Source of the DNA: Ruegeria sp. THAF57
Lineage (GTDB): Bacteria; Pseudomonadota; Alphaproteobacteria; Rhodobacterales; Rhodobacteraceae
Length of the DNA: 64,000 nucleotides
Assembly: GCF_903914075.1 (NCBI RefSeq)
Contig: NZ_CAIWNQ010000001.1
Span: 744,001 to 808,000, forward strand
Direction: 5' to 3'
Below are positions 41,596 to 64,000 of the stretch, one piece after another. The number at the start of each line of letters is the position of its first letter. Position 1 is the stretch's first letter. Both the position numbers and the translations under genes were made by a program. Below the pieces are notes generated by a model. The model was not told the DNA's origin. It saw nothing but the letters and a program-made list of their open reading frames with translations, and made no database searches.

Positions 41596-42567
41596 GTGAT
41601 CAAGACTTCCCCCGAATTGCTTGCCGTAACAGAGCGCTGGTTTGATGCAATCAGATACCGCAGAACGCACGTTTTGAAAGATTATCTGTCAGACTCGGCA
41701 GAGTTGCGATTCATCGGAACCGGCGAGGATGAATTCTGGAGGGGGCAAGTCGTCCGCGATGGTGTCGGCGACTTCATCGGCGAAATGCCCGAGCCAGATG
41801 TTTGGGAAGTGCTGGAAGCCGAAGCCTTCGAGAATGGAGAAACGGGCTGGTCAGCCTTCCTACACAAAGTCGGCTTTCCCGGTCTTGGGGATTCATTCAT
41901 CGTCCGCACTGTACTTGTGTTCGTGTTGGAAGGGGCGTCCTGGAAGATCATAAATCGGCACGCGTCGCTTCCATTTCCAAATGTGGAATTCGTAGGCAGC
42001 GAGCAGTTGGCGATCCAAAGCCTTGTAAATGCCGCGCTAAATGACGGCCCGGAATTGCTTCAGACTGAAGGTTTGGCCTCGGTGCTCTTTACCGATGTAG
42101 AAGGCAGTACGACCCTTGCCGAAGCCATGGGCAACCAAAGCTGGTCCGCCTTGATAGACCAACATTTTCAGACCGTTGAGGGGATCGTTGCGGCACATCG
42201 CGGGCAGTTCGTAAAGTCGCTGGGGGATGGAACGCTATCCAGCTTTCAATCCGCAAACGAGGCGCTTCTCGCAGCTATCGACATGCAGGAGGCCGTTAAC
42301 CTGACCGATATGGAACCGCGTCTGGGTTTGCGGGTTGGCATTCACACCGGCGAAGTCGTGTTGGCGCGCGGCGACTTTTTTGGCACTGTGGTTAACAAGG
42401 CAGCTCGTATTACGTCGTCGGCCAATGCGGGCGAAATCCTTGTTTCAGACGAAACACGAGCCATGGTCAGCGGACACCACGAGTTCAAATTTGTAGACGC
42501 CAAATCAGTAACACTCAAAGGATTGCCAAAGGATCATACTGTTTACCGTTTGCAATGGGCACGATAG
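41596..42567 (+). CDS. SnoaL/NTF2-like domain fused to a class III cyclase
   Basis: The GTG at 41596 has GGGAG 8 nt upstream. Residues 1 to about 135 look like a SnoaL/NTF2-like pocket (RWFDAIRYRRTHVLKDYLSD, WKIINRHASLPF). From about 160 a class III cyclase domain follows: VLFTDVEGSTTLAEA (metal Asp), KSLGDGTLSSF (second Asp), RVGIHTGEVV and VVNKAARITS (Asn/Arg). The catalytic set appears complete. The N-terminal pocket may sense a small hydrophobic ligand; this is inference. Confidence 0.82.
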   Translation: MIKTSPELLAVTERWFDAIRYRRTHVLKDYLSDSAELRFIGTGEDEFWRGQVVRDGVGDFIGEMPEPDVWEVLEAEAFENGETGWSAFLHKVGFPGLGDSFIVRTVLVFVLEGASWKIINRHASLPFPNVEFVGSEQLAIQSLVNAALNDGPELLQTEGLASVLFTDVEGSTTLAEAMGNQSWSALIDQHFQTVEGIVAAHRGQFVKSLGDGTLSSFQSANEALLAAIDMQEAVNLTDMEPRLGLRVGIHTGEVVLARGDFFGTVVNKAARITSSANAGEILVSDETRAMVSGHHEFKFVDAKSVTLKGLPKDHTVYRLQWAR

Positions 42568-52540: not shown

Positions 52541-53113
52541 TCAGCCCTGTTCTTCGTCGTCCTCAAGCGTCAGCAAATAGGCCTTGGTTGCTTCGAGCAT
52601 TTCAGAAGCTTTGGCATCGTCTGTCATGACCCGGGACAGAGCAATCGAACCGACCATAGCCGCCACCGCCAAATTTGCTTTGCTGCGATCCCCGTCAAGA
52701 TAATCGGCGACGGTGTTTATGAAGCCATCAATGTGGGTTTGCATGATGTCCCGCGACGCCTTGGGCCTGCGTGAAACATCCGATACAAGCGCGGGGATCG
52801 CGCAGCCACTGCTTTTTAGGTCACGATGTTTAGGGCTGACATAGCTGCCAACATAGCGCGAAAAGGATGGCTTTTTCGGGCTTGCATTTAGCTTTTGGGT
52901 CAAACGCCCTTCACGCAGCGCGCGTTCAAGTGCCTGATCCAGCAAGTCTTCCTTGTTTTCAAAATGACCGTAGAACCCGCCATGCGTCAGCCCTACGGAT
53001 TTCATCAATGACACGACATTAATCGCTGAAAACCCACCGCTGCGGAGTTGTTCACCTGCGTTCGAGAGGATCTCTTCGCGGTGGCGTTCTTTTTGCGCTT
53101 GAGAGTACCCCAT
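52541..53113 (-). CDS. TetR-family transcriptional regulator
   Basis: From the ATG at 53113 the protein has 190 residues. The N-terminal HTH reads EEILSNAGEQLRSGGFSAIN, then VVSLMKSVGLTHGGFYGHFENKEDLL. The ligand domain includes SSGCAIPALVSDVSRRP, seen in TetR proteins of the GGFYxHFxSKExL type. It is divergent from the feruloyl-CoA-synthase-type gene and is the only specific regulator in the 49.7-64 kb cluster, hence the likely binder of the ATGATGNNNRTCAT sites. Confidence 0.87.
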   Translation of the reverse strand: MGYSQAQKERHREEILSNAGEQLRSGGFSAINVVSLMKSVGLTHGGFYGHFENKEDLLDQALERALREGRLTQKLNASPKKPSFSRYVGSYVSPKHRDLKSSGCAIPALVSDVSRRPKASRDIMQTHIDGFINTVADYLDGDRSKANLAVAAMVGSIALSRVMTDDAKASEMLEATKAYLLTLEDDEEQG

Positions 53114-53252
53114 TGATGCTGGCCTTCGGAATCCGTTACCCTGGTTAGTGCGTTGACGACCCCGGACAAGGTCAATCTGCATTGGAGTCATAATACAGAA
53201 ATCCCCAGTGTGGTCCAGTTTTCACGCGATCTTCCGGCACCCATTGACTTGC

Positions 53253-53266
53253 ATGATGTCTATCAT
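53253..53266. promoter_or_regulatory. Cluster operator 1 (tetR/acyl-CoA ligase region)
   Basis: ATGATGTCTATCAT, with inverted ATGAT/ATCAT arms. A TTGACT hexamer lies 3 nt upstream, so a bound repressor would cover the promoter spacer. It is in the divergent region between the TetR gene and the ligase gene. Confidence 0.75.
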
Positions 53267-53361
53267 ACACAATCCGTTCCAGACTAAGCGGCCCGGCGGC
53301 GATTTCAGATTGCCAAACGCCACGCGGCCTGACCCCGAGGATTCTAAAATCAGGACATGCC

Positions 53362-55245
53362 GTGATCACCGACACAACGACCAACGCCGTTCTTGACCCG
53401 TCCGACGGGATCGAAACCCATGACGACCCGGTCTTTGGCCCCTTGACCTATTTTCCGGCAAAACCGGTTCTGCGGCGTGGTGACGACGCCATTTACCTTC
53501 GCCAGGATTACAAGCTGCCGGACTATCCAACCAGTGTCATCGACTATCTCTATGCAGCCGCCAGCGCACACCCAGACCGCCTTTCGCTTGCTGAACGCGG
53601 ACCACAGGGGTGGGATGGGCCGACATTTCGACAGCTAAAGGCGAATTGCGAGGCTATTGCACAAGCTTTGCTCAACCGTGGTTTAAAGCAAGGAGATTGC
53701 ATCGCCGTTCTGTCCCGCAACAGCATTATCCACGCTCAGATTCTGTTCGGGGCAATGATGGCCGGCATTACTGCCGCGTCGATCTCGCCTAGCTATGCAA
53801 AATTCTCAGAGGCTTTTCCCCGTCTGCAGAGCACATTCGCGCAGTCCAAAGCGAAACTCTTTTTTGTTGATGACGCCCAAACGTTGTCCGATGCATTGGA
53901 CAAGCTTGATCTGAGCGGATGCGAACTGGTGTCCGAACATCCCAGACCCGGTGATACTGACGTCGCCGAGTTGCTGGGCACCAAGGTCACCGAAGCCGTT
54001 GCCGCCGCCCACGCAGCCGTGACCGAAGAAACCGTTGGCAAGATCCTTTTCACCTCTGGCTCGACAGGCAACCCCAAGGGTGTGATCAACACACAGCGCA
54101 TGATGTGTGCAAATATCGCCATGTCGCAAAGGATTGGAATCCGCATTCCTCACGCCCAACGTCGACGGCTATGCTGGCTGCCGTGGCACCATACGTTCGG
54201 GGGCAATCACATCCTGCACGAAATGCTGTTTCACGCATCAGCGCTTTATATCGACTCGGGCCGTCCAGTATCCGGGCCGGATTTTGAACGCAGCTTGACC
54301 GCAATCCGCGAGGTGAAGCCAACCAATTTCTCGAACGTGCCCTTGGCATACGGCATGTTGTTGGACGCAATGGAGCAGGATACTGAACTTGCCGAAGCGT
54401 TCTTTTCGAACCTGACTTTCGTACACTACGGCGGAGCGGGGTTCCCAGGCGAAACCTATGAACGTCTGCAAAAACTGGCCATGACATATCGGGGTTGTCG
54501 TATTCCGCTATCGGGCGGATTTGCCATGACCGAAGCGGCGCCCTCTGTCACGACAGTCCATTGGCCCTATGACGGGGTTGGGCGTATCGGAATGCCTGTG
54601 CCAGAAGTGGAAATCAAGCTAATCCCACTCAGTGACGACCGTTACGAACTGCGGATCAAGGGGCCGAATGTCTTTCCCGGCTACGTAGATCAGCCCGAAC
54701 TGAACAAACGACTTTTCGATGATGAGGGGTTCTTCATTACCGGTGACGCGATCCGCTTTGAAAACATCGACAACATCGCAAATGACCTGCGTTATGCAGG
54801 GCGGGTCAGCGAAGACTTCAAGCTCGACAGCGGTACATTTGTACAAGTTGGGGCGATCCGAACGGGATTGAATCTGGAATGTGGCGGGCTGGTGCGCGAC
54901 ACCGTTGTTGTCGGTGAAGGCCGGGCGCATATCGTCGCGATGGTCTGGCTGAACGATGCGGCCCGCGCACGTGCAACACGGGTGGATGGTGCACTGATTG
55001 AACCTGCCCCCGAAGACCTTGCGCAGGTGCAACAGGCCTTGGATCGGTGGAACCAGAACAATGGCGGCTCCAGCCGGCAAGTGCGCGCAATTGGCATCCT
55101 GGCCGAGCCACCGTCGCTGTCGGAAAACGAAATCAACGACAAAGGCTACGTCAACCAGCGCCAAGTTCTCAAACGTCGCGCAGAAATTGTTGACGCCCTT
55201 TACAACGGAACCCGCAACGACTGGCTAGTGGTGGCACAACAATGA
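53362..55245 (+). CDS. AMP-forming acyl-CoA synthetase, feruloyl-CoA synthase type
   Basis: The GTG at 53362 has AGGA 6 nt upstream. The 627-residue protein has the P-loop FTSGSTGNPKGVINT near residue 232, LPWHHTFGGNH, the adenylate motif GGFAMTEAAPSVTTV and a C-terminal segment ENEINDKGYVNQRQVL with the adenylation Lys. This ending is, from recall, distinctive of feruloyl-CoA synthases. It would activate an aromatic or similar carboxylate with ATP and CoA. It heads a unit with maoC- and tesB-like genes, overlapping the former by 4 bp. Confidence 0.85.
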   Translation: MITDTTTNAVLDPSDGIETHDDPVFGPLTYFPAKPVLRRGDDAIYLRQDYKLPDYPTSVIDYLYAAASAHPDRLSLAERGPQGWDGPTFRQLKANCEAIAQALLNRGLKQGDCIAVLSRNSIIHAQILFGAMMAGITAASISPSYAKFSEAFPRLQSTFAQSKAKLFFVDDAQTLSDALDKLDLSGCELVSEHPRPGDTDVAELLGTKVTEAVAAAHAAVTEETVGKILFTSGSTGNPKGVINTQRMMCANIAMSQRIGIRIPHAQRRRLCWLPWHHTFGGNHILHEMLFHASALYIDSGRPVSGPDFERSLTAIREVKPTNFSNVPLAYGMLLDAMEQDTELAEAFFSNLTFVHYGGAGFPGETYERLQKLAMTYRGCRIPLSGGFAMTEAAPSVTTVHWPYDGVGRIGMPVPEVEIKLIPLSDDRYELRIKGPNVFPGYVDQPELNKRLFDDEGFFITGDAIRFENIDNIANDLRYAGRVSEDFKLDSGTFVQVGAIRTGLNLECGGLVRDTVVVGEGRAHIVAMVWLNDAARARATRVDGALIEPAPEDLAQVQQALDRWNQNNGGSSRQVRAIGILAEPPSLSENEINDKGYVNQRQVLKRRAEIVDALYNGTRNDWLVVAQQ

Positions 55246-55709
55246 CAGAGACATCTTTGGAAGTCAGCCTAGACGCCTATCGCGACCGGGTCGGCAAAGA
55301 GCTTGGCGTATCAGACTGGCTTACGGTGGATCAGGCGCGGATCGACAAGTTTGCAGACGCCACCGACGATCACCAGTTCATTCACATAGACCCGGACCGG
55401 GCCGCAGAAACACCTTTTGGCGGTACGATTGCGCATGGGTTTCTGTCTCTGTCTTTGTTGGTGCCACTGGTGCAGAACGGCGTCCCAAGGATCGCTGGTC
55501 GCACGATGGGTGTGAATTACGGTTTCGATAAGATCCGATTTGTTTCGCCGGTGCCCGCAGGCGCACGTATTCGTGGGCGTTTTCACCTTGCTGGACTGAC
55601 GGACAGGGACGATGGATCCATCCAAACCCGAATGAATGTCACGGTCGAAATCGAAGGAATCGACTCGCCCGCGTTGGTCGCGGAATGGCTTGGGCTGACC
55701 TATTTCTGA
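55242..55709 (+). CDS. MaoC-family dehydratase/enoyl-CoA hydratase
   Basis: The 155-residue hot-dog-fold protein has the hydratase signature FADATDDHQFIHIDPDRAAE with the catalytic Asp/His, followed by FGGTIAHGFLSLSLLVPL. It hydrates 2-enoyl-CoA or dehydrates the 3-hydroxy product. Its start overlaps the ligase stop (ATGA). Confidence 0.88.
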   Translation: MTETSLEVSLDAYRDRVGKELGVSDWLTVDQARIDKFADATDDHQFIHIDPDRAAETPFGGTIAHGFLSLSLLVPLVQNGVPRIAGRTMGVNYGFDKIRFVSPVPAGARIRGRFHLAGLTDRDDGSIQTRMNVTVEIEGIDSPALVAEWLGLTYF

Positions 55710-55745
55710 TCCGCGTTTTCACCGCTTATCCCACCGGGGGCAAAG

Positions 55746-56612
55746 ATGACCCAAGTGCCTTCTCTGGCGGATATATTACAGCCGGAACAAGTTGGGCCTG
55801 ACCTGTTTCGCGCGGCTGCCTTTTCCGGCGACGCGGTGCCGACGCGCCTATTTGGGGGACAGGTTATTGCCCAATGCCTAGCCGCTGCACGCCATTCTGT
55901 GTCGGCAAACCGTCGCTGCCATTCTATCCACTCGTATTTCCTGCGCGCGGGTGATCCGAACCAACCATTGATCTTCCGGGTCGAAAATGCGCGGGATGGT
56001 GGGTCGTTCAGCACGCGGCGGGTGATCGCCACGCAGGGCGACCAGCAAATCCTGAATTTCACAGGGTCTTTCCATGTGCCCGACGAGGGCTGGGACTATC
56101 AGCACGAAAAACCAGACGCTCCGGGGCCACAGGATTGCGCCCCGGACCAAAGCACCGCGACCGCCCGTTCCGCAAATGGCTCGGCCGAAGCAGACAACAG
56201 GCGCATCCACCAGACACAGTTCGAGATTCGCGACGTCGATCCCAGGAATGAGGCAAATCCCGTACCTGTCAGCGATCAGCACGGGTTTTGGTTTCGGATA
56301 CCCGCAGCCAAAAATGGCGATGCCGGCCTGCAGCAGCTTTATCTGACCTATGCGTCTGATATGGGTTTGATGAGCGTAGGTTTGCGCGCCCACGGGTTGA
56401 GCTGGTCGCAGAACACAGCGCAGGGCGCCAGTCTGGATCACGCGCTCTGGCTTCACGCACCTGCCCGCTTACAGGATTGGCACTTTTACGCGATGGATGG
56501 CCCCTGGACGGGCAGCGGCCGTGGACTGGCCCGCGGCATGATCTTTTCCGAAGACGGCAAACTGGTCGCAAGTACAGCCCAGGAATCGCTATTGCGACGC
56601 AAACGCAACTGA
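55746..56612 (+). CDS. Acyl-CoA thioesterase II (TesB-like)
   Basis: The 288-residue double hot-dog protein has LFGGQVIAQCLAAARHSV, SIHSYFLRAGDPNQPLIF and VIATQGDQQILNFTGSF in the N-half, and LWLHAPARLQDWHFYAMDGPW plus SGRGLARGMIFSEDGKLVA in the C-half. All are TesB landmarks. It hydrolyses acyl-CoA esters. It lies 36 bp after the MaoC gene in the same unit. Confidence 0.9.
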   Translation: MTQVPSLADILQPEQVGPDLFRAAAFSGDAVPTRLFGGQVIAQCLAAARHSVSANRRCHSIHSYFLRAGDPNQPLIFRVENARDGGSFSTRRVIATQGDQQILNFTGSFHVPDEGWDYQHEKPDAPGPQDCAPDQSTATARSANGSAEADNRRIHQTQFEIRDVDPRNEANPVPVSDQHGFWFRIPAAKNGDAGLQQLYLTYASDMGLMSVGLRAHGLSWSQNTAQGASLDHALWLHAPARLQDWHFYAMDGPWTGSGRGLARGMIFSEDGKLVASTAQESLLRRKRN

Positions 56613-56776
56613 GCCGCGTCATTCTTGATCGAAGCCCCCTTTCTGCACCTTGTGCAGTTCACCACCTGTGGCACAAGCCCGTTGGCCACCGGGCTCCACA
56701 TGATTTCTGTATGACAATGATAATCTTAAATCGCAAGTTCACATAAGACTTAAGGGACAGTGGACTTGACATCTAC

Positions 56777-56790
56777 ATGATGGCCGTCAT
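56777..56790. promoter_or_regulatory. Cluster operator 2 (crotonase promoter)
   Basis: ATGATGGCCGTCAT, palindromic at 12 of 14 positions. A consensus -35 TTGACA lies at 56766-56771, 5 nt upstream, so the site occupies the -35/-10 spacer of the promoter for the crotonase gene. Confidence 0.78.
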
Positions 56791-56853
56791 TCTGAAGAAG
56801 CTGAAACAAGGCCGATTGGCAGCCTTGTCTGAGCAGCAGGGGAGGATGACGAA

Positions 56854-57636
56854 ATGCAGGATATTCAGGGCAAAGTCAGGCATGAGGTCCAAGGCCGCGT
56901 GCTAAAGATCACGATCGACAACCCGGCAAAGAAAAATGCTTTTCATCCGCAGATGATGGAAGAATTGTCAGACGCCCTGACCCTGCTAGAGCAGTCACCC
57001 GACCTATGGGCAGGGGTGATCTGCGCAGAAGGCGAAGATTTTACAGCGGGGCTGGATATGCCAAAGTTCTTCGGCCCCAACAGCACACCCCCAGAAATTC
57101 CCGAGGGAAACGTCGATGCGTTTGGCCTGCAAAGACAGTGTAGCAAGCCGATTGTCACGGCCGTAAAGGGGATATGCTTCACAATCGGAATCGAAATGAT
57201 GCTAGCCGGAGACATCGCCGTTGCCGCCGATGACACCCGGTTTTGCCAATTGGAATCAAAGCGCGGCATTGCTCCTTTCGGTGGCGCGCACTTCCGATAC
57301 ATCAGCCGCGCCGGTTGGGGAAACGCCATGTACCACCTGATGCTATGCGACGAGTTCAGCGCGGAAGAAGCCCATCGCATCGGGCTGGTACAAGAGGTTG
57401 TGGCCAAAGGACATGAAACCGCACGCGCAATGGAGATTGCGGAAACGATCTGCCGTAACGCTCCGCTTGGCATTCAGGCCATGAAAGTGGCTGGACGTAA
57501 ATTTATTGAACACGGGGAACAGGCTGCGATTGCCTGCATTCCAGAGCTTCGCGACCGTATGCTTGCGACCGAGGACATGCGTGAAGGCATAGCGTCGTTC
57601 GTGGAACGGCGCGAGGCCGTCTTTAAAGGCCGCTGA
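56854..57636 (+). CDS. Enoyl-CoA hydratase/isomerase (crotonase) family protein
   Basis: GGGGAGGATGACGAA precedes the ATG. The 260-residue protein has the oxyanion-hole segments EDFTAGLDMPKFF and VKGICFTIGIEMMLAGD. The two Glu residues of hydratases are aligned in TIGIEMML and FCQLESKRG. It probably hydrates an enoyl-CoA. A hairpin of GCCCC/GGGGC (57644-57661) follows the stop, but transcription may continue into the SDR gene 214 bp downstream. Confidence 0.87.
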   Translation: MQDIQGKVRHEVQGRVLKITIDNPAKKNAFHPQMMEELSDALTLLEQSPDLWAGVICAEGEDFTAGLDMPKFFGPNSTPPEIPEGNVDAFGLQRQCSKPIVTAVKGICFTIGIEMMLAGDIAVAADDTRFCQLESKRGIAPFGGAHFRYISRAGWGNAMYHLMLCDEFSAEEAHRIGLVQEVVAKGHETARAMEIAETICRNAPLGIQAMKVAGRKFIEHGEQAAIACIPELRDRMLATEDMREGIASFVERREAVFKGR

Positions 57637-57732
57637 AACGAGCGCCCCCGGCGGCCGGGGCAGCACCGGAACGGTAGTCGCGCCCTTGATGTAAAGGATA
57701 CTGGGCTGACAGGGGTTTTCGTTAGGCAAAAC

Positions 57733-57783
57733 GAATTCCGGCGCATTTGGGGTTCGACTGCGAGCTGACGAAGACCGGAATTC
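57733..57783. repeat. Inverted repeat between crotonase and SDR genes
   Basis: GAATTCCGG (57733-57741) and CCGGAATTC (57775-57783) are perfect 9-bp inverted arms 33 nt apart. The spacing is large for a single operator. Function unknown. Confidence 0.45.
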
Positions 57784-57850
57784 TGCCCACCTGTGCGCAG
57801 GGAACGATGAAACTGCCCGCTGATACAATCTGACGAAGAAGGAAAGAAAG

Positions 57851-58621
57851 ATGACCAAGGCGAATGAGCTTTTCGACCTGAGTGGCAAGACCGCCCTGAT
57901 AACCGGGGGGTCACGCGGGCTGGGTCTGCAGATCGCCGAAGTGCTGGGCGACAACGGCGCGCGATTGGTGATCTCGTCCCGCAAGGAAACGGATTTGCGG
58001 GATGCCAAGGCGCATCTCGAAGGGCGCGGGATCACCGTGGACTACATCGTGGCGGATAACCGTAAAGATGACGACCTTGTGGCGTTGTCAGCTCAGTCCA
58101 TCGCAAAGCTGGGACGGGTCGATATCCTTGTCAACAATGCCGGGGCCACTTGGGGAAGCCCCGCCGTCGATCACGCGATGGAGGCCTGGGATAAAGTGAT
58201 GGACCTTAACGTCCGCTCTGTGTTTCGCCTCAGCCAGCTGATCGCAAGAGACTCGATGATCCCGAATGGCAACGGCCGGATACTGAACCTGGCGTCGATT
58301 GCTGGGCTAAAGGGCAACAAGGGGATTGTGGCTTACAACACTTCGAAGGCGGCTGTGGTGAACCTGACCCGCGCATTGGCCCACGAATGGGGTGAGCATG
58401 GAATAACGGTGAATGCGCTGGCGCCGGGCATGTTCGAAAGCAAGATGACCGCGGGCACGCTGGATGCGCTGGGGCGCGAAAACGTTGCCGCGCAGAACCC
58501 GCTAGGGCGGATTGGCGGCAGCGAAGACCTTAAGGGGGCGGCGCTGCTTTATTGCTCGGACGCAGGCAGCATGATCACCGGGACCACTTTGGCCATAGAT
58601 GGCGGGCTGACCGCGATCTGA
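57851..58621 (+). CDS. SDR-family NAD(P)-dependent dehydrogenase (canonical)
   Basis: AAGGAAAGAAAG precedes the ATG. The 256-residue protein has LITGGSRGLGLQIAE, VNNAG at residues 95-99, catalytic Ser149, and Tyr162/Lys166 in AYNTSK. The C-terminal TGTTLAIDGG is typical. It probably oxidises a hydroxyacyl-CoA or an alcohol group. It is followed by the HCCA-isomerase-like gene on the same strand. Confidence 0.88.
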   Translation: MTKANELFDLSGKTALITGGSRGLGLQIAEVLGDNGARLVISSRKETDLRDAKAHLEGRGITVDYIVADNRKDDDLVALSAQSIAKLGRVDILVNNAGATWGSPAVDHAMEAWDKVMDLNVRSVFRLSQLIARDSMIPNGNGRILNLASIAGLKGNKGIVAYNTSKAAVVNLTRALAHEWGEHGITVNALAPGMFESKMTAGTLDALGRENVAAQNPLGRIGGSEDLKGAALLYCSDAGSMITGTTLAIDGGLTAI

Positions 58622-58665
58622 AGGCGCCCGGCCTATCCGTAGACCACTTTGAAAAGGAAAGATTG

Positions 58666-59280
58666 ATGCAGAAACACGTCGCCTTTCACTTCGATTTCGG
58701 CAGCCCGAACTCTTACCTTGCGCATCTCTTGATACCCGGTCTCGCGCAGACCTATGGCGCGACGTTCACCTACGTGCCGGTGCTGCTGGGCGGCATCTTC
58801 CGCGCCACTGGCAACCGGGCACCGGGTGAAACCAATGCCGGGATCGAGAACAAGCTGCGGTACGAACGGCGCGACCTGCTGCGATTCACTGAACGCAACG
58901 GAATCGCCGATGAGTTCTCATTCAACCCCTATTTCCCGATTAACACCCTGCAACTGATGCGCGGCTGCATTGCGGCGCAACGGTTAGGTGTGTTCGAGCG
59001 TTACATGGAACGCGTCTTTCGCGGCATGTGGCAGTTCGAACAGAATCTTGGCGACCCTGAGGTGCTGTCGCGCTGGCTGACAGATGGCGGGCTAGAAGCC
59101 GAACCCCTGTTCGCACTGATACAAGACCCCGAAGTCAAAGCCCAACTGATCTCGAATACGGAAATGGCTGTTTCCGCTGGTGATTTTGGTGCACCGACCT
59201 TTCACTACGACGGGGAAATCTATTTCGGAAAGGATCGTATCCGCGATCTGGAACAGCATCTGGCCGGTCTGGATAACTGA
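58666..59280 (+). CDS. 2-hydroxychromene-2-carboxylate isomerase-like (DsbA/kappa-GST fold)
   Basis: The ATG at 58666 follows AAAAGGAAAGA, 45 bp after the SDR stop. The 204-residue protein has FHFDFGSPNSYLA, matching the active-site Ser region of HCCA isomerases and kappa GSTs, PYFPINTLQLMRG, and the cis-Pro loop GDFGAPTFHYDGEIYFGKDR. Such enzymes perform glutathione-dependent cis-trans isomerisation of aromatic breakdown products. Confidence 0.85.
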   Translation: MQKHVAFHFDFGSPNSYLAHLLIPGLAQTYGATFTYVPVLLGGIFRATGNRAPGETNAGIENKLRYERRDLLRFTERNGIADEFSFNPYFPINTLQLMRGCIAAQRLGVFERYMERVFRGMWQFEQNLGDPEVLSRWLTDGGLEAEPLFALIQDPEVKAQLISNTEMAVSAGDFGAPTFHYDGEIYFGKDRIRDLEQHLAGLDN

Positions 59281-59327
59281 CACACGCATTTGGGTCAGCC
59301 GACCCACCCTACAGAAGGACACTCCTT

Positions 59328-60056
59328 ATGGAACAAAGAGCAGAAACTGTTGTCGTGGTTGGAGCCGGTGATTTCATCGGCGCGGCCATCTGCAAGGCCT
59401 TCGCCGCCGAAGGCTTTACTGTGATCGCCGGTCGGCGCAACGGGGATAAACTGCAACCGTTGGTGGATGAGGTCACAGCCGCCGGAGGCCGAATGATCGG
59501 CAAAAGTCTGGATGCCCGGGACGAAGATCAGGTCATCGACTTCATCAAGTCCGCCGAAGAAGTTGGCCCAATCGAAGTTTGCATCTTCAACGTCGGCGCG
59601 AATGTGAATTTCCCATTCACAGAAACCACGGAACGGGTTTTCCGCAAAGTTTGGGAAATGGCCTGCTACGCCGGTTTTCTGACCGGGCGCGAAGCCGCCA
59701 AAGCGATGCTGCCACGCGGAACCGGCAATATCTTTTTCACTGGTGCAACCGCCGGGCTGCGCGGCAATCCGGGCTTTGCCGCCTTTGCCAGCGCCAAGTT
59801 TGGCATCCGCGCCGTCGCTGAATGCGCCGCCCGTGAATTGATGCCCAAGGGCATCCATGTGGCGCATCTGGTCATTGACTCCGGCGTTGATACCCAATGG
59901 GTGCGCGAGATGATCACCGCCCGCGGCGGCAACCCGGAAGACCGGGTTCTGATGGATCCCGCGTCCGTGGCAAAGACCTATATCCAGCTTTGGAAACAGC
60001 CCAAAGACGCGTGGATGTTTGAGACGCAGATACGACCAAGCGTAGAAACGTGGTAA
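59328..60056 (+). CDS. Short-chain dehydrogenase-like protein lacking the catalytic Tyr (paralogue)
   Basis: The 242-residue protein has VVGAGDFIGAAICKAF and, at the YxxxK position, F-A-S-A-K (Phe153, Lys157). Residue 140, 13 before the Phe, is Ala. It resembles the protein at 51588-52337 along its length, including the C-terminal WKQPKDAWMFETQIRP. It closes the crotonase-SDR-isomerase-SDR run. Confidence 0.82.
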   Translation: MEQRAETVVVVGAGDFIGAAICKAFAAEGFTVIAGRRNGDKLQPLVDEVTAAGGRMIGKSLDARDEDQVIDFIKSAEEVGPIEVCIFNVGANVNFPFTETTERVFRKVWEMACYAGFLTGREAAKAMLPRGTGNIFFTGATAGLRGNPGFAAFASAKFGIRAVAECAARELMPKGIHVAHLVIDSGVDTQWVREMITARGGNPEDRVLMDPASVAKTYIQLWKQPKDAWMFETQIRPSVETW

Positions 60057-60179
60057 ACTGAGAGTTGTCGTTTCGGTCGACTCCTGCATCGGCTGACAGT
60101 CGGATATGACAAAAGCTACCCGCCCTCAGCGCCGCAATGCGGTCACAGGGACATTCCCGTGCCCCCACTGACCACTGCC

Positions 60180-60667
60180 CTAGCGGGGTTGTGCCCCGTC
60201 CCATTCGATCATGAGCGGGCGCAACGCTCCTGGAAGGTCCGACTTTGTCCCGTGCTGATCTAGAAAAACCAACACCGCCGAAGCGGTTGCAATCTGGCCA
60301 TTCCCCCAGATCGCTACTCCATTGTACAGCTAGAGCGGCCGACCTGCGCAGTGCGCCCCGTCACGATCACATCGTCATCCAGATGAACTGGCTTTAGATA
60401 GTCGATCTGAAACCGTCGGATCACCATCAGATTGGCCCCCGGCGTCGCATATTCCGGCCAACCATAGGCGCGCAGATAGGCCATGCGGAACGCCTCGATC
60501 CAACGCAGGTATTTCACGTTCGAGACATGGTTCTGCGCATCCAAGTCCCCGAATGTCGCCCGAAAGCCTACCCCGAAATTCCAAGGTTCCGGCACCCCGT
60601 AGCCGCGCAGGTCGGCGGCTTTCATCGGCTCATAATGCCCTGAGATTCTGAATTTTTGCTCGTTCAT
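60180..60667 (-). pseudogene. 4HBT acyl-CoA thioesterase broken by a single-base frameshift
   Basis: The first 117 codons (60667-60314) give the N-half of a hot-dog thioesterase: FRATFGDLDAQNHVSNVKYL with the catalytic Asp, and VTGRTAQVGRSSCTME followed at once by TAG. In the next frame the family's natural continuation reads AIWGNGQIATASAVLVFLD to a TAG at 60180-60182. One missing base in GAGTAGCG (expected GAGTAxGCG, coding EYA) would restore a 163-residue protein. It is either a recent mutation or a sequencing error. It lies 19 bp downstream of the GMC gene on the same strand. Confidence 0.8.
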
Positions 60668-60686
60668 ACTTTGACGTCTTTGTCTA

Positions 60687-62294
60687 CTATCCGGCCAATA
60701 TCATTCTGCTGGCCTTCTCTGCGATCATGATCGTCGGGGCATTGGTATTGCCCGAGGTCAACTCGGGCATGATCGAACAATCGACAACCCGCAATCCTGC
60801 AATCCCGTGCAGCTTCAACTTGGCATCCACAACTGCATCCGGCCCCGGCCCCATTTTACAGGTCCCTGACGGATGGAAGATCGTCACGGCGTGACCGCGC
60901 GCCCAGTCCAGCATCGCATCGTAATCGTCGCTTTGTATTGTGCTGCCCGGCAAATACTCAGACGCGATATGGCTCGCCAAGGGTGACTGCGCCGCAATCG
61001 TGCGGGCGATGCGAATTCCTTCGACCAACGTGCGGCAATCGGTTTCCGTAGATAGATAGTTGGGGTGAATTTTGGGATAAGTGGCAGGGTCTGGACCATT
61101 CAACAGAATCTGCCCACGACTTTCGGGGCGCAACTGGCAAACGGTTGAAGTGAAGCCGAAAAAGTCATGCAGGTTCCCTTCCGCATCATAAGAAAACGGC
61201 TGCACGTGAAACTGAATGTCCGGCGTTTCCAGATCAGGGTGCGTTTTCAGAAACGCGGTAGCATCCGCCGCTGGCATCGACAAAGGTCCGTTCCGGCCCA
61301 CGAAATAATATTGGGCGGCGATGGCCGCCTGACGCATCAGCGACTTCCCTTCGCGGTTGTATGTGGGAACCGACATCCGATGCACCATCTTGGCCTGTAG
61401 ATGATCCTGCATCGCCTGCCCGACACCCGAAAGCTCGTGACGGGGCTGCACGCCGTTTTCAGACAAATGATCGGGATTTCCAATCCCTGACAGCATAAGT
61501 ATCTGAGGCGACCCGATCGACCCGGCCGATAAGATCACCTCGCGCCCGGCCTTAAGCGACACCAATCTACCCGAGCGATCCTTGTAGGTGATGCCTGTAC
61601 AGCGTTTGCCATCCAGATCCACGTTCTGCACATGGGCATGAGTGTTCACACGCAAATTGGGGCGCGACCTAATCGGTTTCAGAAACGCATTCGCCGTCGA
61701 ATGACGTTTGCCATAGGCGATGGTTGTCTGAAAAAAGCCGACCCCTTCCTGCTGCTCTGCATTGTGATCAGGGTTATACGGGTAGCCCGCTGCAATTGCG
61801 GATTCGACCCATTTTTCACTCAGCGGATGGCGCGACCGAGGGGTGCTGACCGTCATTTCGCCGTCACTACCCCGCAGGTCAGAGTCGTATTGATCCTCAG
61901 CACCCTCCTCGCGCCCTTCGGTAGCTTTGAACAGCGGCAGGACATCCTCCCAGCCCCAGCCTTCGTTGCCCAATTGCCGCCAACGGTCATAATCGGACGG
62001 CTGCCCGCGCACGTATAGCAACCCGTTTATCGACGATGACCCTCCAAGCGTCTTGCCGCGCGGCCAGAAAAGCCGCCGCCCATTTAAGCCGGGATCAGGT
62101 TCGGTTGAATAGCACCAGTTATACTTCTCATTTCGAAGCATTTTCACAAAGCCCGCAGGCGCATGAATGAAGGAGCTGTTATCCTTGCCTCCGGCCTCCA
62201 GCAATATGACCTTGTTTTTTGGGTCGGCAGTCAGCCGGTTGGCCAACACACAGCCAGCAGAACCCGCCCCAACAATGATGTAATCCGCGTCCAC
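60687..62294 (-). CDS. GMC-family FAD alcohol dehydrogenase/oxidase (choline dehydrogenase-like)
   Basis: From the GTG at 62294 (GGGAGG upstream) the protein has 535 residues. The FAD motif is YIIVGAGSAGCVLANRL; the GMC signatures are PRGKTLGGSSSINGLLYVRG and SAGSIGSPQILMLSGIG. The catalytic His is in AVTIFHPSGTCKMG, and the second His/Asn in SGNTNAPTIMIAEKA. It would oxidise a primary or secondary alcohol. It follows the zinc alcohol dehydrogenase gene by 87 bp. Confidence 0.88.
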   Translation of the reverse strand: MDADYIIVGAGSAGCVLANRLTADPKNKVILLEAGGKDNSSFIHAPAGFVKMLRNEKYNWCYSTEPDPGLNGRRLFWPRGKTLGGSSSINGLLYVRGQPSDYDRWRQLGNEGWGWEDVLPLFKATEGREEGAEDQYDSDLRGSDGEMTVSTPRSRHPLSEKWVESAIAAGYPYNPDHNAEQQEGVGFFQTTIAYGKRHSTANAFLKPIRSRPNLRVNTHAHVQNVDLDGKRCTGITYKDRSGRLVSLKAGREVILSAGSIGSPQILMLSGIGNPDHLSENGVQPRHELSGVGQAMQDHLQAKMVHRMSVPTYNREGKSLMRQAAIAAQYYFVGRNGPLSMPAADATAFLKTHPDLETPDIQFHVQPFSYDAEGNLHDFFGFTSTVCQLRPESRGQILLNGPDPATYPKIHPNYLSTETDCRTLVEGIRIARTIAAQSPLASHIASEYLPGSTIQSDDYDAMLDWARGHAVTIFHPSGTCKMGPGPDAVVDAKLKLHGIAGLRVVDCSIMPELTSGNTNAPTIMIAEKASRMILAG

Positions 62295-62381
62295 CTGCCC
62301 GGCACCTCCCAAAACCTATCAATGAAATCCGGCTCCTTGGCCTGCTTTGTTTTCAAACTGCGGGTCGCGTTCAAACCGTGT

Positions 62382-63443
62382 TCATGGGGTCAGGACGACC
62401 CGACCGATAACCTTCCCGTCTTTCAGGTCCATCAGCGCGTCGTTGGCGTCCTGTAATGGGCGGCGCGTCACGGGTGCCAAGCTCAACTTGCCGGATTTGG
62501 CCAACTCAAGCAGTTCGGACAGTTCGTTCAGATTGCCCACATATGACCCGATCACCGCCATGGCGCGTATGGGGAAATAGACGGTGGGGATTTTCAACTG
62601 ACCGCCAAACAAACCGACCACAACGATCCGAACGCCCTTACGCGCGGCGGCCAGCCCCAAATTGATCGTGGCCTCGGCACCCACCAAATCCAAGACCAAC
62701 AGGGCCCCTCCCCCGGTGGCGGCTTTGATTTGCTCGTCCGCATCAGGCGCATTGCCATCTATGGCCGCCAGCGCCCCGGCCTCAAGCACGGCGTGGCGCT
62801 TTGCCTCGTCAAGATCGACGAAAACGGCCCCCTTGCCACCAAGTGCACGGATCACCCGAAGCGCCATATGCCCAAGTCCACCCGCACCCAGGATCACCAC
62901 CGGCGTGTCGCGGATATCGTCCCCGAATTTTTTCAGCGCGCTATAGGTGGTTACCCCGGAACAGGCCAAAGGCGCGGCCTCTGCCGGGTCCAGGTCGCCA
63001 AGCGTCAGACAATATTTGGCGCGCGGCACCACCACGTATTGCGCATAGCCGCCGGGGGTGAATATCCCAAGGGCCCGCGGTGCATTGGGGCACAAATTCT
63101 CTTGATCCTTTGCGCAGGTTTCGCAGGTGCCACACCCCAGCCAGGGATAGACAAGATAGCTTTCGCCCAACTCCAAACCCTGCGCGTCGGGGCCCAACGC
63201 GACCAGTTCGCCAACAATCTCATGACCCATCGTCAGGGGAAGCTTTACGCCCCGATCGGACAAGTTCATCTCTTGGTTGTCGCCCAGATCATAGCCACCT
63301 TCCCAGAAGTGCAGATCAGAGTGACACACACCCGAGGCACGCACCTTCAACAGCACCTCGTCCCCTTCCAACTCGGGCAGGTCCTGCACGATTTTCTGCA
63401 GTGGCGCCTGGTGTTCTGTCACGCAATAGCACTCATTTTTCAT
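62382..63443 (-). CDS. Zinc-dependent alcohol dehydrogenase (MDR family)
   Basis: The 353-residue protein has catalytic-zinc ligands Cys40 (GVCHSD), His74/Glu75 (GHE) and Cys161. The structural-zinc cysteines are 104, 107, 110 and 118, and the nucleotide motif is VILGAGGLGHMA. It oxidises an alcohol with NAD(P). It heads the adh-GMC-thioesterase unit behind cluster operator 3. Confidence 0.9.
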   Translation of the reverse strand: MKNECYCVTEHQAPLQKIVQDLPELEGDEVLLKVRASGVCHSDLHFWEGGYDLGDNQEMNLSDRGVKLPLTMGHEIVGELVALGPDAQGLELGESYLVYPWLGCGTCETCAKDQENLCPNAPRALGIFTPGGYAQYVVVPRAKYCLTLGDLDPAEAAPLACSGVTTYSALKKFGDDIRDTPVVILGAGGLGHMALRVIRALGGKGAVFVDLDEAKRHAVLEAGALAAIDGNAPDADEQIKAATGGGALLVLDLVGAEATINLGLAAARKGVRIVVVGLFGGQLKIPTVYFPIRAMAVIGSYVGNLNELSELLELAKSGKLSLAPVTRRPLQDANDALMDLKDGKVIGRVVLTP

Positions 63444-63506
63444 GGTCTGGCCTCTTGTTCTTCGTATCGCAATTGCTTGGAAATGTTGCCATTCAGCCGC
63501 ATCTGT

Positions 63507-63520
63507 ATGATGCTCATCAT
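63507..63520. promoter_or_regulatory. Cluster operator 3 (alcohol dehydrogenase promoter)
   Basis: ATGATGCTCATCAT, perfect ATGATG/CATCAT arms around CT. It lies 63 bp upstream of the alcohol dehydrogenase start; on the minus strand a TTGATG hexamer precedes it by 2 nt. Confidence 0.78.
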
Positions 63521-63585
63521 CCCATCAAGCCTACCTTGATGTCAACAAAACTTGCCCCCTTTTCCATCGACCCATTGCGACCTGC

Positions 63586-63599
63586 ATGATGCATGTCAT
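63586..63599. promoter_or_regulatory. Cluster operator 4 (second acyl-CoA ligase promoter)
   Basis: ATGATGCATGTCAT, palindromic at 12 of 14 positions. TTGCGA lies at 63575-63580, 5 nt upstream, the same geometry as operator 2. The flank ACCCATTG before it is also found before operator 1, suggesting related promoter modules. Confidence 0.75.
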
Positions 63600-63771
63600 G
63601 CCCTTCGGCAGGCAGATCGCCGCTGTGTGAAAAGGGGCCGACTAACTGCCCAGCGCAAAATGTCAGCGTCACAATCGCAAAACCGGGAAATATCACTTTT
63701 GCGGAACATTGTTCCGTACAGCGGTCTTGGCACAGCTCAGAAACCGCTCTAACATCCTTGAGGGAGGAGTC

Positions 63772-64000
63772 GTGGTTCTGCCCGATGGGATGCCACGCGC
63801 ATGGGAGGATATCGCTTTGATTTTGACAGGCGCGGTTGATGCGTGGCTGAAAGACTATGCGCACGGCAGTAACGGAACCTCGGCTATGACGCCTGAACAG
63901 GCCGTGCACTACCTGATCGCAAATGAACCGATTTACGAGCTGTCCCAAGCCCGGATTCGCGGGGTCGAGACCCGCGTATTCAAGAACATCCCCGGTCACA
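63772..64000 (+). CDS. AMP-binding acyl-CoA synthetase, N-terminal part only
   Basis: The GTG at 63772 follows AGGGAGGAG. The 76 visible codons read through to the window end. The segment LSQARIRGVETRVFKNIPG resembles the N-terminal lead-in of fatty-acid or aromatic acyl-CoA ligases (R-G-x-x-T-R-V-F/W-K-N-x-P). The assignment rests on this short stretch only. It is divergent from the alcohol dehydrogenase gene. Confidence 0.55.
   Translation, partial: MVLPDGMPRAWEDIALILTGAVDAWLKDYAHGSNGTSAMTPEQAVHYLIANEPIYELSQARIRGVETRVFKNIPGH

Follow-up and report, generated by a model that had tools for sequence, protein, structure and literature searches.

The stretch considered here is a window of 64,000 nucleotides from the genome of Ruegeria sp. 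THAF57 (4.28 Mb in 20 contigs), taken at its full length, and its last part holds a cluster of catabolic genes that is interspersed with a short palindrome and begins beside a gene for a TetR-family regulator. An earlier note had proposed the palindrome as the mark of a TetR regulon, and the 14-mer on which it relied, ATGATGNNNRTCAT, is indeed present at positions 53253, 56777, 63507, and 63586. As had been said, all four copies are intergenic relative to the likely genes, some being overlapped by long spurious frames, and two finer details were confirmed on the sequence, namely the TTGNNN hexamer found 5 nt before copies 2 and 4, and the flank ACCCATTG common to copies 1 and 4.

The regulator gene lies at 52541–53113 on the minus strand, where the earlier note had placed it, and encodes a protein of 190 amino acids with the recognition helix GLTHGGFYGHF, a longer frame of 216 amino acids starting at 53191. 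The TetR_N DNA-binding domain (PF00440; cut-off 24 bits) is matched by this longer frame with a score of 29 bits, and the match to the ScbR-type autoregulator-binding factor NF041196 (NCBIfam) reaches 43.1 bits, under the curated cut-off of 150. The plus strand then carries a first unit formed by an AMP-binding coenzyme A (CoA) ligase (ligase 1, 53362–55245; Pfam PF00501, with PRK12582 as the closest NCBIfam entry, under its cut-off), for which no solved relative was found at E up to 1e-20, a MaoC-like hydratase (maoC, 55242–55709), and a TesB-type acyl-CoA thioesterase (tesB, 55746–56612), in which NCBIfam tesB falls under its cut-off. These last two, and most of the genes that follow, were assigned by family scans. 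The second unit, also on the plus strand, is composed of a crotonase-family enoyl-CoA hydratase/isomerase (56854–57636), a short-chain dehydrogenase (SDR1, 57851–58621), a DsbA-fold protein (58666–59280; Pfam DSBA, found on the 58552–59280 frame), which is presumably 2-hydroxychromene-2-carboxylate isomerase-like, and a second short-chain dehydrogenase (SDR2, 59328–60056). A third unit, on the minus strand, includes a zinc alcohol dehydrogenase (adh, 62382–63443), a GMC oxidoreductase (60687–62312), and a 4HBT thioesterase (60314–60667), and the 5' part of a second CoA ligase (ligase 2, 63772–64000, plus strand; start codon picked by eye) runs past the end of the window, to be followed by 3-hydroxyacyl-CoA dehydrogenase, enoyl-CoA hydratase, acyl-CoA dehydrogenase, and SDR genes. 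The family matches are generic as to substrate, and together they point to the β-oxidation-type catabolism of some alcohol or acid.

The element described in the earlier note requires some correction, given that its symmetric core is ATGAY-N4-RTCAT, which extends to a 20-mer of approximately TGNATGAYNNNNRTCATNCA; the G at core position 6 is common, rather than invariant, being found in 64% of readings over 48 sites of TetR homologues, with both strands read. A fifth copy, missed previously, is found 66 bp before copy 2, with its core at 56711–56724 (ATGACAATGATAAT) and a single mismatch. The predicted operators, none of which is assigned to a strand, are thus O1 (copy 1, TGCATGATGTCTATCATACA, 53250–53269), O2a (the additional copy, 56708–56727), O2b (copy 2, 56774–56793, 5 nt after the hexamer TTGACA at 56766–56771), O3 (copy 3, a perfect palindrome, 63504–63523), and O4 (copy 4, 63583–63602). 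The core of O1 begins 153 nt before the start of the 190-residue regulator, that is, within about 200 bp of it. In the window, the 14-mer has five matches at four places, because the perfectly palindromic copy at 63507 is counted once on each strand, while dinucleotide shuffles yield a mean of 0.09 matches, and none of the 100 shuffles reaches five.

The same cluster is found in a metagenome-assembled genome (MAG) of Marinibacterium, of which 51 kb of the contig was read, and where an orthologue of the regulator (locus L041) is 83% identical. It is surrounded by matches to ligase 1 (73%), maoC (70%), tesB (61%), the crotonase (76%), and SDR1 (90%), together with the DsbA-fold protein (68%), SDR2 (88%), the GMC oxidoreductase (58%), and the alcohol dehydrogenase (78%). 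The exact core is found three times in these 51 kb. One copy lies before tetR and ligase 1, a second before the crotonase gene, with two one-mismatch copies next to it, and the third before a DctP-family gene whose same-strand run also takes in the adh match. The other one-mismatch copies in this segment are one intergenic copy (37297) and five in open reading frames (ORFs). In automatic ORF calls, all three exact sites fall within ORFs whose starts are over-long; in the tetR gene and in the enoyl-CoA hydratase gene that diverges from the crotonase gene, homology starts past the site, and the Pfam match of the DctP-family protein runs from residue 83.

Conservation of the sites in orthologous clusters had been set out in the earlier note as a check on its proposal, and O1 and O2b do stand out as conserved islands. 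When the intergenic regions of the two genomes are aligned, the 20-column windows of highest identity coincide with the operators (18/20 identical at O1 and 17/20 at O2b), in regions with an overall identity of 173/369 and 138/269 columns, respectively. For O2a, too, there is a counterpart in the MAG, which also retains the TTGAC hexamers. Close orthologues are scarce, given that, among 394 genomes of the family, ligase 1 matches of at least 73% and TetR matches at E < 1e-90 are restricted to this genome and the MAG, while SDR1 at E up to 1e-95 is found in one of 101 relatives, namely this genome. To judge from this distribution, the cluster looks accessory.

Hexamers resembling the −35 element are found at O1, O2b, and O3. 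A promoter scan recovered a candidate promoter for the ligase 1 unit that spans O1 (TTGACT-18-CACAAT, 53244–53273, plus strand) and is conserved in the MAG, and a candidate tetR promoter (TGGACC-16-TATTAT, 53190–53217, minus strand), both hexamer regions of which are kept there. O2a is overlapped by the promoter-like match TCCACA-18-GATAAT, and O3 by the minus-strand match TTGACA-18-GATGAT (63545–63516). The scan as a whole gave seven matches where 5.6 were expected, which is not above chance, and the hexamers alone therefore prove nothing, but their conservation in the MAG adds weight to those at O1 and O2b. O1 lies approximately 33 bp upstream of the candidate −35 element of tetR (53217–53212), so that O1 could control tetR itself only weakly or indirectly.

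More distant evidence is provided by homologues of the regulator, which were searched for in 196 relatives, 394 genomes of the family, 385 genomes of the class, and the GTDB contigs, and which, apart from the MAG orthologue, are 25–41% identical to it. The motif was first seen upstream of these homologues as an exact core within 400 bp at 18 of 71 loci, a count that includes the window's own locus and duplicates. Thirty loci were then given for 60 matched places, 22 of them new (30–38% identity), and the exact core lies no more than 250 bp upstream in 16 of these 22, where 0.06 would be expected from 200 shuffles of each; with up to one mismatch, it is found in 20 of the 22, against 0.99 expected. 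Some of these loci come from genera already seen (g100 and g109, for example), so that they are not fully independent. The two homologues that lack the site have the recognition helix GLTQGAFYKQF. In a motif-free ranking of 5-mer palindromes, made on the upstream regions (150 bp) of 89 distinct homologues, ATGAT-N4-ATCAT is the commonest (21/89), a margin that is modest, taken alone, over the best palindrome of the coding-region control (16/89); as we read them, six of the seven palindromes ranked next share its register, helped by duplicates from the Burkholderiales.

A matrix was built from 125 sites of these distant homologues, with no contribution from this genome or the MAG, and its five best places in the window are 53250 (O1, 25.8 bits), 63504 (O3, 23.6 bits), 56708 (O2a, 21.4 bits), 56774 (O2b, 20.6 bits), and 63583 (O4, 17.7 bits), the sixth dropping to 10.9 bits. 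As its sites were chosen at no more than one mismatch to the core, the core of the matrix is partly given by construction. A 40-site model likewise ranks the four sites of the earlier note first in the window, with O2a at only 5.2 bits.

Two of the distant homologues (L012 and L042) have two operator copies 24–25 bp apart and neighbours homologous to SDR2 and the DsbA-fold protein, an arrangement that suggests an older TetR-SDR-DsbA module. In other species of the genus (L017, L018, L020, L024, L025, and L040), a TetR homologue of 28–29% identity stands beside a divergent NAD(P)-binding gene, NmrA-like by eye, with a one-mismatch palindrome copy at −58.

The presence of the site also follows the recognition helix. 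Of the 73 homologues that have His after GLT or GMT, 71 have the site within 200 bp with no more than one mismatch (1.1 expected, from shuffles that keep single-base composition only), as do five of the six with Arg; none of the ten with Val, Ala, Gln, Asn, or Ser has it. Given that 28 GLTHGAFYGHF loci of the Burkholderiales are near-duplicates, all with one-mismatch sites, a clustered count is fairer, and this gives 27/27, 5/5, and 0/7 for the His, Arg, and other groups at 50% identity, and 32/32, 5/6, and 0/7 at 60%. The regulator of the window, in which the residue after GLT is His44 by the numbering of the 190-residue protein, belongs to the site-bearing group. The group that lacks both His and Arg is small, and its members may simply not autoregulate, so that the association of helix and site is only a lead. 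The genes that adjoin the distant homologues vary, being SDR-, NmrA-, GST-, thiolase-, aldo-keto-reductase-, or transporter-like by eye, and the feature that is shared would thus be the operator rather than a single pathway.

Taken together, it is highly probable that the palindromes are the operators of the TetR protein encoded at 52541–53113, which would control a local regulon on an accessory cluster of the CoA-ligase/β-oxidation type, as the earlier note had proposed. The palindrome is very probably the docking site of this adjacent regulator, since distant relatives of the protein carry it before their own genes, and the comparison supports this reading through the conservation in the MAG, the occurrence upstream of distant tetR genes, and the lack of an exact site at 23 paralogues of the ligase. 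Inverted-repeat operators at the target promoters are recognized here by their sequence and its conservation, from which we infer binding, repression, a ligand, and the common control of the units. A TetR dimer would bind ATGAY-N4-RTCAT, the helix GLTHGGFYGHF reading each half, and would sit on or just past the −35-like elements, blocking RNA polymerase. In this case, O1 would govern ligase1-maoC-tesB, O2a and O2b the crotonase-SDR-DsbA-SDR unit, and O3 the adh-GMC-thioesterase unit, while O4 would probably act on ligase 2 and the genes that follow. The substrate of the pathway or its CoA thioester may release the protein, inducing the whole cluster.

The motif might alternatively be a property of the ligase gene family, a candidate that was rejected on the basis of the 25 ligase loci fetched from matches in 99 genomes. 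Two of these are the present cluster and that of the MAG, both of which have an exact site in the 350 bp upstream, while the other 23 are paralogues, with no exact sites and three one-mismatch sites in the same interval; at E up to 1e-25, 22 of the 23 paralogue genomes are without a TetR match, and the remaining one (G445) has its match on a different contig. The idea of chance repeats, or of a dispersed repeat such as a repetitive extragenic palindromic (REP) or transposon-end family, could draw on the 12 places where the genome matches the 14-mer exactly, eight of which are outside the window and at least five of these in ORFs, but it was rejected on the shuffle test of the window, with its four places against 0.09 expected matches, and on the enrichment of the core upstream of the 22 newly fetched homologues, and the short conserved islands shared with the MAG also oppose it, leaving it a negligible probability.

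That a regulator encoded elsewhere reads the sites, the adjacent TetR protein being a bystander, is very improbable, even though the binding protein cannot be named from sequence alone, given that the palindrome lies upstream of homologues of this very protein in many genera and that exact sites are lacking at the ligase paralogues. At E up to 1e-3, the genome has only two further TetR matches (C7:105234, E 6.9e-6, and C2:514434, E 3.4e-4; C numbers denote contigs), and their recognition helices are different (NVSSRTLYNHF and GVPKGSFYHFF, respectively). A narrower control, restricted to the ligase 1 and crotonase promoters, with the adh and ligase 2 sites decayed or fortuitous, has better prospects, and is nevertheless unlikely. 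It is favored by the low score of O4, which is equalled by a background site, and by the lack of a ligase 2 match in the 51 kb of MAG contig that were read, but O3 is a perfect palindrome, second in the matrix ranking and overlapped by the TTGACA-18-GATGAT match, and the adh match of the MAG is also downstream of an exact site, before the DctP-family gene.

A number of observations weigh against control of the whole cluster by this TetR protein. Close conservation is known from one other cluster only, since the close orthologues are so few, and the 51 kb read of the MAG contig gave no match to ligase 2. O4 is the lowest-scoring of the four sites first described, and a site outside the cluster (C2:542543, 17.6 bits) scores as high. 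Across the genome, the 14-mer is matched at 12 places (none for the reversed-pattern control), and since this 10-kb stretch accounts for four, eight exact copies lie outside the window, at least five of them within ORFs. In a genome-wide search with the 40-site model, in which 150 of 2124 first-look candidates were scored, copies 3, 2b, and 1 lead (14.2–13.5 bits), C3:656983, inside an ORF of 174 amino acids, follows closely at 12.8 bits, and neither O4 nor O2a appears among the matches at E up to 10. The equivalent search of the MAG (150 of 1790 candidates scored) recovered the tetR/ligase 1 site and one ORF-internal site on C191, and not the crotonase or DctP sites.

The earlier note had counted many genome-wide matches in unrelated coding DNA as evidence against it, and the outcome is mixed, in that the sites of the window score higher (17.7–25.8 bits) than the exact copies found elsewhere (7.2–17.6 bits), while those copies are often located in coding frames. 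Five of the eight are in ORFs of 174 amino acids or more and one in an ORF of 93 amino acids; seven score 7.2–15.0 bits and one 17.6. The copy at C4:150179 (11.0 bits) lies between divergent aminotransferase-class and class-I tRNA-synthetase genes, and that at C2:542543–542556 (17.6 bits) in an ORF of 101 amino acids without a Pfam match, between two genes for branched-chain-type ATP-binding cassette permeases, where it is a possible extra target or a chance match. None of the eight was adopted as a further regulon member. The exact 20-mer TGNATGAYNNNNRTCATNCA is found at O1 only, and one mismatch to it adds copies 3 and 4 and C9:99511, inside an ORF. Up to two mismatches yield 42 places in the genome and 31 in the MAG (five and two for the reversed pattern), so that loose matches by themselves mean little. 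The four highest matrix scores among the 42 places are those of the four sites first described, the next being 15.1 bits. Elsewhere in the window, 41596–42567 encodes a protein of 323 amino acids in which an N-terminal SnoaL-like domain is fused to an adenylate/guanylate cyclase catalytic domain.

Beyond this cluster, the comparisons moderately favor the existence of a large, unnamed TetR subfamily, represented in the Burkholderiales and presumably in the Alphaproteobacteria, with the helix GLTHG(G/A)FYxHF and a single operator code, ATGAY-N4-RTCAT, across proteins that share only about 30% identity. Specificity would be determined by the residue after GLT (H or R, as opposed to V, A, Q, N, or S), and the ligand domains and targets would diverge while the DNA code stays. 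If so, many uncharacterized regulons would be readable from the sequence, and a one-line operator rule for a widespread subfamily would allow local regulons to be predicted together with their boundaries, and perhaps the inducers as well, with a potential use in biosensors; for the present accessory cluster, it provides a testable predicted operator. Neither this operator nor characterized members of the THGGFY type were recognized in the literature searched, as judged mainly from search listings.

Local, autoregulated catabolic regulons of the TetR family are well known, such as those of KstR and of FadR of Bacillus, which have in common with the present system a TetR-type N-terminal domain, inverted-repeat operators near promoters, a regulator divergent from its operon, and targets of the lipid or CoA type. 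The difference is in the operator sequence, the site of the Bacillus FadR having the half TGAATGA and a spacing two bases shorter. By sequence, the nearest solved relative of the regulator is PDB 2fd5 (“transcriptional regulator”; E 7e-19, residues 8–177 aligned), whose helix GLTVGGFYAHF has V where the regulator has H, and the V-type regulators sampled show no site (0/5).

Two further systems offer points of comparison. EilR of Enterobacter lignolyticus, likewise a TetR regulator, has a pair of palindromic operators in the region between divergent genes, one of them embedded in both promoters, and a His and an Arg of its helix-turn-helix domain contact bases (PMC6127294), but its operator, eilO, is of 11+2+11 bp and another sequence, and its target is an efflux pump (PMC6127294). 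PA3973 of Pseudomonas aeruginosa is a TetR regulator of acyl-CoA dehydrogenase and thioesterase genes, with two close palindromes at its own promoter (PMC9736018), and it differs in its motif, SAAGRNMTGAACG / TGAATCCGGATTCA, and in its more than 300 sites detected by chromatin immunoprecipitation (PMC9736018).

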